DNA of 64,000 nt from positions 1-64,000 of the forward strand of contig JAGWTH010000010.1 of the NCBI GenBank assembly GCA_028868995.1, given 5' to 3'. Made by a program: the position numbers and the translations under genes. Of this stretch, positions 29,390 through 32,649 are shown piece by piece. This DNA comes from Burkholderiales bacterium (GTDB lineage Bacteria > Pseudomonadota > Gammaproteobacteria > Burkholderiales > Burkholderiaceae_C). Below the pieces are notes generated by a model. It made no database searches and was not told the DNA's origin. It saw only the letters and a program-made list of their open reading frames with translations. Within the stretch, counting starts at the first letter, position 1. Each line of letters begins with the position of its first letter.

Positions 29390-29507
29390 TAGAATCCCCC
29401 GGTCACGCATTTGTGCCAATGGATAGACTGGGCTCGTGATGCACTGCATCGCACGTGAGAGCCATTTCAGGATTCCACTCGCCTCCGCTCGCGGAGGCAT
29501 TTTTTTT
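29390..29507 (+). ncRNA. Candidate small RNA
   Basis: In the 248-bp gap after the membrane gene, a TAGAAT -10-like hexamer (29390-29395, with GTGACC 15 bp upstream) precedes about 105 nt containing a hairpin around GATGC-ACT-GCATC within CTCGT...ACGTGAG. It ends in a terminator with T8. No ORF fits. It could alternatively be the 3' UTR of the membrane gene or a leader of the next gene. Confidence 0.32.
29481..29507 (+). terminator. Rho-independent terminator GCCTCCG-CTCG-CGGAGGC-A-T8
   Basis: Seven-bp GC-rich arms followed by T8, in the gap between the EptA-like domain gene and the DUF3014 gene. Confidence 0.85.
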
Positions 29508-29529
29508 GCCCGGGCCGCGCGTGTATAGT
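29507..29529 (+). promoter_or_regulatory. Promoter of DUF3014 gene
   Basis: TATAGT at 29524-29529 is a good -10. No clear -35 is seen at the expected spacing, where sequence runs through the T-run and GCCC. It lies about 64 bp before the ATG at 29593. Confidence 0.4.
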
Positions 29530-29592
29530 GGGGTTGCATTGGTACCCATGCGATGGGCGCCACGGCGCGCGGCGACCGCGCGAGGAGACCCC

Positions 29593-30498
29593 ATGGCAAG
29601 CGCGACGCATCGCCCCCCGCTCGAACGCAACCCTTCGCTGCGCGCCGACCCCGGCGACCGGCCCGACCTGCGCCGCGGCTCGCGCGCCGGGCGCTACGCC
29701 CTGCTCCTGCTCGCGCTGCTGGCCGGCGCGGCGGCGGCCTGGTACTGGTGGCAGCACCAGGCCGCCGAGCCGCCCCCGCCGGCTGCCCCGGTGACGGTGC
29801 GGGAGCCCGCGGCCCCTGCCCCGGCTGCGCCGACGCCCCCGGCCGCGGCCGTCGAGCACTACCCCCCGCCGCCGCCCGAGCCTTCGCCCATCCGGACCGG
29901 GCCGGATGTACTCGCGGCGCTGCAGCAACTGCTGGGCCCGGCCAGGGTCGCCGCGTTCCTGCAGACCGACGACTTCGTGCGGCGCGCCGTGGCGACGCTG
30001 GACAACCTGGGCCGCGACCATGCACCGCCGGCGGCCTGGCCCTTCAAGCCCACGCCCGGCCAGTTCCAGGTCGATGCACCGAGCGGCGACCAGGCGAGCG
30101 CCTCGGCGGCCAATGCGAAGCGCTACGACGCCTGGGTGACGATGGCCGAATCCGTGAACCCGGCCGCCGCGGCCGCCGTGTACCGCCGCATGTATCCGCT
30201 GCTGCAGCAAACCTACCGCGACCTGGGCTTCGGGGACCGCTCCTTCCACGAACGCGTCATCCAGGTGATCGACCTGCTGCTGGCCTCGCCCGAGCCGGCC
30301 CGGCCCCCGATGCTGCAGCTGCCGCAGGTGAAGGGCCCCTACCCGCTCGAGCGGCCCTGGGAGCACTACGAGTTTGCGGACCCGCAGCTGCAGTCGCTGG
30401 CCTCCGGCCAGAAGATCCTGGTGCGCATGGGCCTGGCGAACGAGCGCCGGGTCAAGGCGGTGCTGCGCAAGTTCCGCACGGAGCTGGCGACGAAATAG
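29593..30498 (+). CDS. DUF3014 domain protein, membrane-anchored
   Basis: This 301-residue protein has a short cytoplasmic N-terminus, one membrane helix (about residues 36-54, YALLLLALLAGAAAAWYWW), a proline/alanine-rich spacer (about 60-105) and a C-terminal DUF3014 region (LGPARVAAFLQTDDFVRRAVATLDNL; VNPAAAAAVYRRMYPLLQQTYRDLGF; ILVRMGLANERRVKAVLRKFR). The C-terminal domain would face the periplasm. Function is unknown. GAGGAGA precedes the chosen ATG; the ORF-track start upstream lies in the promoter. Confidence 0.75.
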   Translation: MASATHRPPLERNPSLRADPGDRPDLRRGSRAGRYALLLLALLAGAAAAWYWWQHQAAEPPPPAAPVTVREPAAPAPAAPTPPAAAVEHYPPPPPEPSPIRTGPDVLAALQQLLGPARVAAFLQTDDFVRRAVATLDNLGRDHAPPAAWPFKPTPGQFQVDAPSGDQASASAANAKRYDAWVTMAESVNPAAAAAVYRRMYPLLQQTYRDLGFGDRSFHERVIQVIDLLLASPEPARPPMLQLPQVKGPYPLERPWEHYEFADPQLQSLASGQKILVRMGLANERRVKAVLRKFRTELATK

Positions 30499-30518: not shown

Positions 30519-31631
30519 TCAGAACAGCGAGCCCTGCCCCGGCGGCGCCGGCGGCCGGAACAGGTCGGTGCGCAAGTCCTGCCGCCTGGCGTTGAAGCCC
30601 AGGCGCTTCGCGGCGCGCCCGAAGCGCTGGCGCAGCAGCTGCGCCCAGGTCCCCGCGCCCTTCATGCGGGTGGCGAAATCGCTGTCGTAATCCTTGCCGC
30701 CGCGCATGTCCTGGATGCGGTGCATCACACGTTCGGCGCGCTGCGGGAAGTGCATTGCCAGCCACTGCCGGAACAGCGGCGCCACCTCCCAGGGCAGCCG
30801 CAGCACCTGGTAGAAGGCCTCGCGCGCCCCCGCGTCCCAGGCGGCTTCCAGCACCTGCTCCAGGTCGTCGTTGAGGAAGGGGATCTGCGGCGCCAGGCTC
30901 ACGCCGCAGGGCACGCCGTGCTCCGCCAGGGTGCGCAGCAGGCGCAGCCGCCGGTGCGGCGCAGCGGCGCGCGGCTCCAGCTTGCGGGCCAGGTCGGCGT
31001 CGAGCGTCGTGATCGTCACGAACACCGTCACGAGCCCCTGCCGCGCCATCGGTGCGATCAGGTCGAGGTCACGCTCCACCCCGGCGGACTTGGTGACCAG
31101 GCCGAAGGGATGGTTCGTCCCATGCAGCACCTCGATCAGGCCGCGCGTCAGGCGCAGCTCGCGCTCGACGGGCTGGTAGCAGTCGGTGGCGCTGCCCAGG
31201 GCGATCAGTTCCGGCCGGTAGGACCGGCGCCCGAGCTCCGCGCGCAGCAGGTCGGCCGCGTTGCGCTTGGCGATGATCTTCGTCTCGAAATCCAGCCCCG
31301 GCGAGAGGTTCAGGTAGCCGTGCGTGGGCCGGGCGTAGCAGTAGATGCAGCCGTGCTCGCAGCCGCGGTACGGGTTCACGGACTGGCCGAAGTAGATGTC
31401 CGGCGAGTCGTTGGTCGTGATGATGCTGCGCGCCGTCTCCCAGATCACTTCGGTGCGCGGGGCCGGGGCGGCGTCCTCTTCAGCCGCCGGCCAGCCGTCG
31501 TCGAAGGCCTCGCGGGCAGCGCGCTCGAACCGGTGCGGGAAGGCGTTCGCGGTGCCGCGGCCCTTGAGCGCCGCCAGCGGCACACGCACCTCGTCCACGC
31601 GCGAGTCGGTGCTCCGGTCGATACTGTCCAT
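30519..31631 (-). CDS. PA0069 family radical SAM protein (SplB-like)
   Basis: This 370-residue protein has the cluster-binding motif CEHGCIYC in NPYRGCEHGCIYCYARPTHGYL and an SplB-like radical SAM body (LALGSATDCYQPVERELRLTRGLIEVL; LITKSAGVERDLDLI-type block). It belongs to the PA0069 family; the Pseudomonas gene is part of the LexA regulon. A LexA box overlaps the annotated start, so the true start may be a GTG about 11-16 codons downstream (V12, V15 or V17), still before the conserved LKGRGTANAFPHRF. A DNA-repair-related role is inferred from SOS control and similarity to spore photoproduct lyase. Confidence 0.85.
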   Translation of the reverse strand: MDSIDRSTDSRVDEVRVPLAALKGRGTANAFPHRFERAAREAFDDGWPAAEEDAAPAPRTEVIWETARSIITTNDSPDIYFGQSVNPYRGCEHGCIYCYARPTHGYLNLSPGLDFETKIIAKRNAADLLRAELGRRSYRPELIALGSATDCYQPVERELRLTRGLIEVLHGTNHPFGLVTKSAGVERDLDLIAPMARQGLVTVFVTITTLDADLARKLEPRAAAPHRRLRLLRTLAEHGVPCGVSLAPQIPFLNDDLEQVLEAAWDAGAREAFYQVLRLPWEVAPLFRQWLAMHFPQRAERVMHRIQDMRGGKDYDSDFATRMKGAGTWAQLLRQRFGRAAKRLGFNARRQDLRTDLFRPPAPPGQGSLF

Positions 31632-31641
31632 TCGTACAGTA
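31622..31641. promoter_or_regulatory. LexA (SOS) box TACTGT-N8-ACAGTA
   Basis: TACTGTCCATTCGTACAGTA matches all conserved positions of the LexA consensus TACTGT(AT)4ACAGTA. It overlaps the ATG of the radical SAM gene and lies in the 40-bp gap after the nitronate monooxygenase gene. Confidence 0.85.
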
Positions 31642-31671
31642 TGCCACCGGAAGCGGCGCGGCGGGGGGACT

Positions 31672-32649
31672 TCAGGCCGGTGTCGGCACCGGCAGGGACA
31701 GGCGCGACCGCGCTTCCGCGTACTCGCGCTTCAGGCGCGTGACCAGTTCGGCGACGTGCACCACTTCCTTCACCGCGCCGATGCCCTGGCCGGAGCCCCA
31801 GATGTCCTTCCAGGCCTTCTTGCTGCCCTCACCGCCGCCGAAGCTCATCTTGCTCGGGTCGCTCTCGGGCAGGTGGTCCGGGTCGAGGCCGGAGGCGCGG
31901 ATGCTGGACTTCAGGTAGTTGCCGTGCACGCCGGTGAACAGGCTCGAATACACGATGTCGTCCGAGGTGCCTTCGACGATCGCCTGCTTGTAGGCGTCGC
32001 TGGCGCGCGCCTCGACGGTGGCGATGAAGGCCGAGCCGATGTAGGCGAAATCCGCGCCCATCGCCTGCGCCGCGAGGATGGCGCCCCCGTTGGCGATGGC
32101 GCCCGACAGCGCGATCGGGCCGTCGAACCACTCGCGGATCTCCTGCACCAGCGCGAACGGGCTCTTGACGCCCGCATGGCCGCCGGCGCCGGCCGCCACC
32201 GCGATGAGGCCGTCGGCGCCCTTCTCGACCGCCTTGTGGGCGAAGCTGTTGTTGATCACGTCGTGCAGCACCACGCCGCCGTAGGAGTGGATCGCGTCGT
32301 TGACGTCGGGACGCGCGCCGAGCGAGGTGATGATGATCGGCACCTTGCGCCGGACCACCGCTTCCATGTCGTGCTCGAGGCGGTCGTTGCTCTTGTGCAC
32401 GATCTGGTTGATCGCATAGGGCGCCGCCGGCCGGTCGGGATGGGCGCGATTGTGCGCCGCCAGCCCCTCCTCGATCTCGTGCAGCCACTCGTCCAGCTGC
32501 GAGGCCGGGCGCGCGTTGAGCGCCGGCATCGAGCCGACGATGCCGGCCTTGCACTGCTCGATCACCAGCTTCGGGGTGCTGATGATGAACATCGGCGAGG
32601 CGATCACCGGCAGGGGGAGGTTGCGCAGGACGGGCGGCAGCTTCGACAT
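31672..32649 (-). CDS. Nitronate monooxygenase
   Basis: This 325-residue FMN-dependent TIM-barrel protein of the NMO/2-nitropropane dioxygenase family has PVIASPMFIIS, IVGSMPALNARP, VAAGAGGHAG and the flavin phosphate segment IALSGAIANGGAILAAQAMGADFAYIGSAFIAT. It would oxidise alkyl nitronates with O2. It lies 13 bp downstream of an acyl-CoA dehydrogenase gene on the same strand and is probably cotranscribed with it. The ATG at 32649 has an AGGAGTCCC site. Confidence 0.9.
   Translation of the reverse strand: MSKLPPVLRNLPLPVIASPMFIISTPKLVIEQCKAGIVGSMPALNARPASQLDEWLHEIEEGLAAHNRAHPDRPAAPYAINQIVHKSNDRLEHDMEAVVRRKVPIIITSLGARPDVNDAIHSYGGVVLHDVINNSFAHKAVEKGADGLIAVAAGAGGHAGVKSPFALVQEIREWFDGPIALSGAIANGGAILAAQAMGADFAYIGSAFIATVEARASDAYKQAIVEGTSDDIVYSSLFTGVHGNYLKSSIRASGLDPDHLPESDPSKMSFGGGEGSKKAWKDIWGSGQGIGAVKEVVHVAELVTRLKREYAEARSRLSLPVPTPA

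Follow-up and report, generated by a model that had tools for sequence, protein, structure and literature searches.

How is a gene expressed when its start codon lies inside the operator of a repressor? The question arises in the 64,000-nucleotide stretch of DNA analysed here (the window), where a reading made from the sequence alone had placed a LexA box across the start of a PA0069-type radical SAM gene. Is the box genuine, and is the ATG within it the real start of the protein? Where would the mRNA begin? What chemistry might the enzyme perform?

The gene and its neighbours

The coding features from which the analysis starts are:

30519..31631, minus strand: gene for a PA0069-family radical SAM protein of 370 aa (NF033668, 467.7 bits with a cut-off of 360; PF04055, 48.2 bits)
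31338..31361, minus strand: [4Fe-4S] motif C91-x3-C95-x2-C98, invariant in 168 of 168 sequences
31672..32649, minus strand: upstream neighbour, nitronate monooxygenase-like (PF03060), 40 bp from the radical SAM gene

The match to NF033668 is full-length and lies above the curated cut-off, which bears out the family assignment made from the sequence alone. Named relatives with 73-77% identity are Ramlibacter MAGs, so the genus is probably Ramlibacter; farther relatives come from Polaromonas, Variovorax and other Comamonadaceae. Clustering of the neighbourhoods of about 170 loci revealed no conserved operon partner, and groups with an upstream DnaB-like helicase or acyl-CoA dehydrogenase comprise only about 20 loci each. 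The convergent neighbour at 29455-30498 (plus strand) encodes a DUF3014 protein (PF11219).

A perfect LexA box

The element at the head of the gene is:

31622..31641, no strand (palindromic): LexA operator (SOS box) TACTGT-N8-ACAGTA, recognised by its sequence, its rarity and its conservation in relatives

The box is real. It reads TACTGTCCATTCGTACAGTA in the window and TACTGTACGAATGGACAGTA on the minus (gene) strand, and all 12 of the 12 specified positions match, so that the earlier description of it as near-perfect was an understatement. It is the sole site of the window with two mismatches or fewer to TACTGTN8ACAGTA, for which shuffled sequences predict 0.07 sites. From base composition, an i.i.d. 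model expects 0.0002 perfect sites per 64 kb and 0.012 per 3.76 Mb; the 3.76-Mb genome to which the window belongs has three. The core CTGTN8ACAG occurs 17 times genome-wide, versus 0 for a reversed control pattern. The genome also encodes a canonical LexA (TIGR00498, 220.7 bits; cut-off 110.95) whose gene has LexA-like boxes upstream, and imuA has a box as well. Could the palindrome still be a chance match? Weak CTGT-like sites do occur in the window, and nothing else speaks for this reading; the genome-wide rarity of the box and its conservation across Pseudomonadota contradict it, and we regard its probability as negligible, conservation having refuted it.

Several other boxes of this genome deserve mention in their own right. 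The second perfect one, TACTGTTTTTATTAACAGTA (locus L001, 1501-1520; own genome C15:216304), lies 64 bp upstream of a DUF4007 gene (L001, 1585-2508) that matches SspB defence models (PADLOC, E 1.7e-116), an arrangement that suggests SOS control of an Ssp-type anti-phage system. The third (L003, 1501-1520; own genome C65:44219) holds the ATG of an ORF, MKLQYTALLHTFEARLNPDPEMC..., in the same in-box layout as the radical SAM gene; this ORF resembles a broken transposon-type gene and has no match in Pfam or NCBIfam. Four apparent insertion-sequence copies (L004-L007; own genome C3:425, C33:54474, C43:31 and C63:11705) open with TACTGTATGCGTGTCCAGTA, which is one mismatch from the LexA box and contains the ATG of a TnpB-like ORF. 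In the imuA box, TACTGTATAAATCAACAGGT (L010, 1501-1536; own genome C65:19242), an in-frame GTG occupies box position 19, 15 nt before the ATG, and because of this imuA may also start on its own operator.

Conservation of SOS control

How widely is the box kept? The radical SAM gene scores above the family cut-off in 106 of the 151 genomes of its own GTDB family, and 104 upstream regions were scanned for a box within 400 bp upstream, with mismatches counted to TACTGTN8ACAGTA. Of the 104 regions, 39 have a perfect box as their best site and 68 one with at most one mismatch, where arithmetic with equal base use predicts about 0.1 genes; at most three mismatches are found in 97, a level that is weak alone because a 460-bp scan yields such a site by chance in about one-fifth of cases. 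The box also precedes the gene in named Burkholderia, Cupriavidus, Massilia, Herbaspirillum and Pusillimonas; among the named relatives examined, it is absent from those of Dyella, Rhodanobacter and Frateuria. In family f11, nine of nine genes have a CTGT-type box with two mismatches or fewer. The alpha LexA motif, GTTC-N7-GTTC, stands in perfect form before 27 of the 30 best-scoring genes taken from the phylum's other classes, whose genomes are presumably alphaproteobacterial. The presence of two different LexA motifs before the same gene argues for selected SOS control. The LexA operator is thus very consistent at this gene across Pseudomonadota, and these upstream patterns strongly support the LexA regulation that the initial reading had proposed.

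SOS control of PA0069/splB-type genes is already known and is not new here. Regulation of splB was predicted in alpha- and beta-Proteobacteria in 2012 by Sanchez-Alberola et al. (PMC3323433), and COG1533 SplB is listed as SOS-regulated in several species in a Bacteroidetes study (PMC8565304). A radical SAM gene of Streptomyces venezuelae, vnz_31145, possibly a member of the related Rv2578c family, stands in a LexA regulon table (PMC9380542). A literature search on Rv2578c returned no report of a damage response. A search on PA0069 and LexA found no paper stating membership of the P. aeruginosa regulon. We nevertheless take PA0069 to be a member, as the sequence-only reading did.

Where does translation start?

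The start region comprises:

31629..31631, minus strand: ATG start codon, box positions 11-13, conserved in 24 genus members and followed by an N-terminus under coding constraint
31620..31631, minus strand: codons 1-4, Met-Asp-Ser-Ile, with MNSI/MDSI conserved in the genus

The annotated ATG (31631-31629) does fall inside the box, as had been noted, and two explanations had been left side by side: either the protein starts further downstream or the mRNA is nearly leaderless. What decides between them? In 24 genus members an in-frame ATG stands at box position 11, and the peptide M(N/D)S(I/V)DRS(T/S) is common to 18 of these genes. The 3' half-site ACAGTA is read within Asp-Ser-Ile (codons 2-4), so operator and coding sequence overlap. 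Beyond the box, codons 5-8 still encode D-R-S-(T/S) with varying codons; Ser-7, for instance, is written AGC, AGT, TCC or TCG. Pairwise differences in the genus amount to 0.25, 0.33 and 0.48 at the three codon positions, versus 0.71 per site upstream of the box. Two members (L122 and L132) have a TGA immediately before the ATG, and two others (L229 and L133) offer no alternative start ahead of the conserved KGRG. The N-terminal peptide is thus kept while its codons change synonymously, and certain members lack any alternative start; on this comparative evidence, the in-box ATG is the true start.

A different arrangement would leave the operator in an ordinary 5' leader, with translation from GTG-12 or GTG-15. 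The N-terminus that GTG-12 would give, MDEVRVPLAALKGRG, does match the probable N-terminus in other lineages, such as MDEVRVPLEALKGRG in L139, and in other lineages the ATG lies downstream of the box. However, only 8 of 18 genus members have GTG-12, while the codons upstream of it (5-8) keep their amino acids; it has no good Shine-Dalgarno (SD) sequence at a suitable spacing, and L229 has no alternative start at all before KGRG. We consider a downstream start unlikely. Of the two explanations, then, the one with the in-box start is kept, and the mRNA is better read as leaderless.

Does the promoter move with the start codon?

If the ATG sits inside the operator, where would transcription begin? 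The candidate promoter element of the window copy is:

31638..31643, minus strand: putative -10 CATACT, extended (TGG-CATACT, with the TG at 31646-31645), assigned by reference to in-box relatives

To place it, 142 genes with a box of three mismatches or fewer were sorted by layout. The ATG is fused to the box at position 20 in 38 of them, lies at position 11 in 27 (in-box) and further downstream in 64; an ATG at position 7 (7 genes) was not counted as a start class because it is part of the common box interior. The letters ATG occur at position 20 in 39 genes, 38 of which have them in frame with the protein. The -35 core TTG separates the two classes. In fused genes it occurs at -15±1 in 15 of 38 (background 1.4 per three-position window) and at -24±1 in one; in-box genes have it at -24±1 in 8 of 27 (background 0.95) and at -15±1 in none. 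The displacement is significant (Fisher p = 1.2e-5; 3e-5 after similar sequences were removed), although TTG at the expected place characterises a minority of genes in each class, and in-box members are not independent since most belong to one genus. The -35 moves by 9 nt, which is exactly the displacement of the ATG. If the spacer is 17 nt long, the -10 would be at box positions 8-13 in the fused class (TATATT type) and at -1 to 4 in the in-box class (CATACT), and +1 would fall on the A of the ATG in both. Because the -35 moves with the ATG, transcription probably starts at that A, giving a leaderless mRNA; this applies at the level of the classes, and the 64 of 142 genes with an ATG further downstream are not leaderless by the same argument. 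SD pairing of -4.5 kcal/mol or stronger is found in 0 of 38 fused and 3 of 27 in-box genes, versus 25% of random positions, and no SD is visible before 31631 in the window copy.

The fused layout can also be looked for directly. Across the 151 genomes, 23 of the 31 distinct counted sites that match TACTGTN8ACAGTATG lie at the radical SAM gene, and the reversed pattern is not found. At 21 of these 23 the ATG points in the direction of the gene; in the other two, from the own genome and G098, it is on the opposite strand. The eight perfect ATG-fused boxes away from the gene, all in other genomes of the family, are at G091:C322:19574, G103:C202:3822, G112:C15:3454, G025:C18:26244, G076:C2:5872, G004:C1:1362305, G108:C107:143 and G098:C4:137271.

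For the window copy itself, the putative -10 overlaps the 5' half of the box and puts the predicted +1 on the first base of the ATG (31631). No -35 can be recognised there (31661-31666 reads CCCCGC), a generic promoter and terminator scan of this copy found nothing, and in most of the MNSIDRST clade the -35 is weak at best. Lacking a -35, the gene would have to be served by the extended -10 or by read-through from the gene 40 bp upstream. Is it expressed mainly by such read-through, with LexA acting as a roadblock or as the repressor of a minor promoter? The two genes share a strand and lie close together, and the missing -35 fits. Yet the nitronate monooxygenase-like gene adjoins the radical SAM gene in only 8 of 30 genus loci (own genome included), the box and its in-box ATG are kept where this neighbour is missing, and the operator overlaps an extended -10 that is correctly spaced from the ATG. 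Read-through as the main source of expression therefore has a small but appreciable probability. The reading we prefer, argued from the behaviour of the classes, is that the mRNA of the radical SAM gene is probably leaderless, with +1 at the A of the ATG.

A predicted photoproduct lyase-like fold without the catalytic cysteine

The sequence-only reading had called the family SplB-like and taken the box to support a role in DNA damage. Is the enzyme a spore photoproduct lyase (SPL)? The likeness holds at the level of the fold. The AlphaFold model (mean pLDDT 77.9; poor at the N-terminus and at residues ~102-115) contains the partial TIM-barrel fold of SPL. Its top Foldseek hit is the SPL structure 4fhg (E 2.6e-7, TM ~0.5, 16% identity), and SPL chains make up the top six hits, at 15-16% identity. 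The comparison was extended with the SPL Pfam family PF20903 and three bona fide SPL homologues (L297-L299, the first confirmed against PDB 4fhc). PF20903 has no match in the own genome at E ≤ 10, and in a profile comparison with the three homologues the alignment extends over no more than about 100 columns, in the C-terminal half (E 3.8e-6).

In SPL the H-donor is a fourth conserved cysteine (C140 Gt / C141 Bs) that is essential in vivo (PMC3742179). Across the 168 sequences there is no conserved cysteine beyond C91, C95 and C98, and thus no counterpart of the H-donor. In a motif alignment made by eye, the GxxTD segment that faces CTSD of SPL has Thr, Ser or Val in place of the Cys. At the place of the relay tyrosine, Y98(Gt), the window copy has Tyr; across the 168 sequences, 76 have Tyr and 92 Phe.

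The view that the enzyme is a true SPL or photoreactivation enzyme goes back to 2012, and the SOS literature calls COG1533 SplB (PMC3323433, PMC8565304 and PMC3765255); the Foldseek ranking agrees with it. Against this, the profile match is confined to part of the C-terminal half, the SPL Pfam finds nothing, the H-donor cysteine is missing and the relay tyrosine is not conserved; on these grounds the identification as an SPL was rejected, and we rate it as very improbable. The earlier term SplB-like accordingly survives for the fold and fails for the SPL Pfam and the H-donor cysteine. Because the likeness to SPL holds at fold level only, the box supports a DNA-damage role and does not support photoproduct-lyase chemistry, the H-donor cysteine being absent family-wide. 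The usual photolyase label fails on the catalytic residues and should be dropped pending biochemistry. Judged from the predicted model and the regulation, an SOS-controlled enzyme with an SPL-like fold that performs chemistry on nucleic-acid lesions is probable; that its substrate is a damage product is our guess from fold and regulation.

A proposed mechanism

Repression by LexA and its RecA-stimulated cleavage are established SOS biology. How might they work on a gene built in this way? In undamaged cells a LexA dimer would block transcription by lying across the -10 region, +1 and the start codon together. DNA damage would lead to RecA-stimulated self-cleavage of LexA and free the promoter, and RNA polymerase would then begin on the A of the ATG or no more than 1-2 nt away. 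The resulting mRNA would have no leader and no SD; its translation would follow the leaderless route, with codons 2-4 formed by the operator's 3' half. The product would be a 4Fe-4S radical SAM enzyme of SPL-type fold that probably acts on damaged nucleic acid, with a radical chemistry unlike that of SPL.

Taken as a whole, we consider this explanation (a LexA operator built into promoter and start codon, a leaderless SOS mRNA and an SPL-fold radical SAM enzyme) to be quite likely. Its extension to the entire family is more tentative: that a single 20-bp element would serve as LexA operator, -10, transcription start, start codon and first codons, with a leaderless SOS mRNA and a radical SAM enzyme for the repair or editing of damaged nucleic acid that lacks the SPL cysteine, is a possibility to which we lean slightly less than to its opposite.

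What would be new in this? A start inside an SOS operator, combined with a predicted leader-free mRNA, looks like a conserved and unreported design. The fusion of operator and start with a shifting promoter is a conserved variant of which no description was found in the literature consulted, and it offers a simple natural test case, as two groups of genes differ by a 9-nt shift that promoter and start codon share. Should the mRNA be leaderless, the SOS response would translate it independently of SD pairing, and the start annotation of many orthologues would need checking.

Comparison with known systems

The closest precedent for the regulation is the SOS-regulated splB/COG1533 (PMC3323433, PMC8565304), which shares with the present gene the broad gene type and a LexA box upstream in beta- and alpha-Proteobacteria. 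The first of these surveys includes Variovorax, and its splB is assumed here to correspond to NF033668. In its excerpts the position of the operator relative to the start codon is not discussed and the enzyme is read as a photolyase, whereas the PA0069 family is devoid of the SPL catalytic cysteine. SPL itself (SplB; PDB 4FHC-4FHG and 4K9R) is the nearest solved fold. Both have the radical SAM CX3CX2C motif, and Y96(Gt) is kept; they differ in the low identity, the lack of an SPL Pfam match, the absent H-donor cysteine and the relay tyrosine.

Within the PA0069 family (NF033668; prototype P. aeruginosa PA0069), to which the whole protein belongs by its score, the N-terminus is set by the operator in the genus described here (M-N/D-S-I), while the f11 relatives have an ATG downstream of the box. 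Published work documents leaderless mRNAs in beta-Proteobacteria (PMC4603805, PMC7563307). In the transcription start maps of B. cenocepacia and C. metallidurans, as in the arrangement proposed here, the promoter is directly upstream of the start codon and there is no SD. The 5' ends of those mRNAs were mapped, whereas the present one is predicted from sequence and has, in addition, the operator of a repressor covering its start codon.
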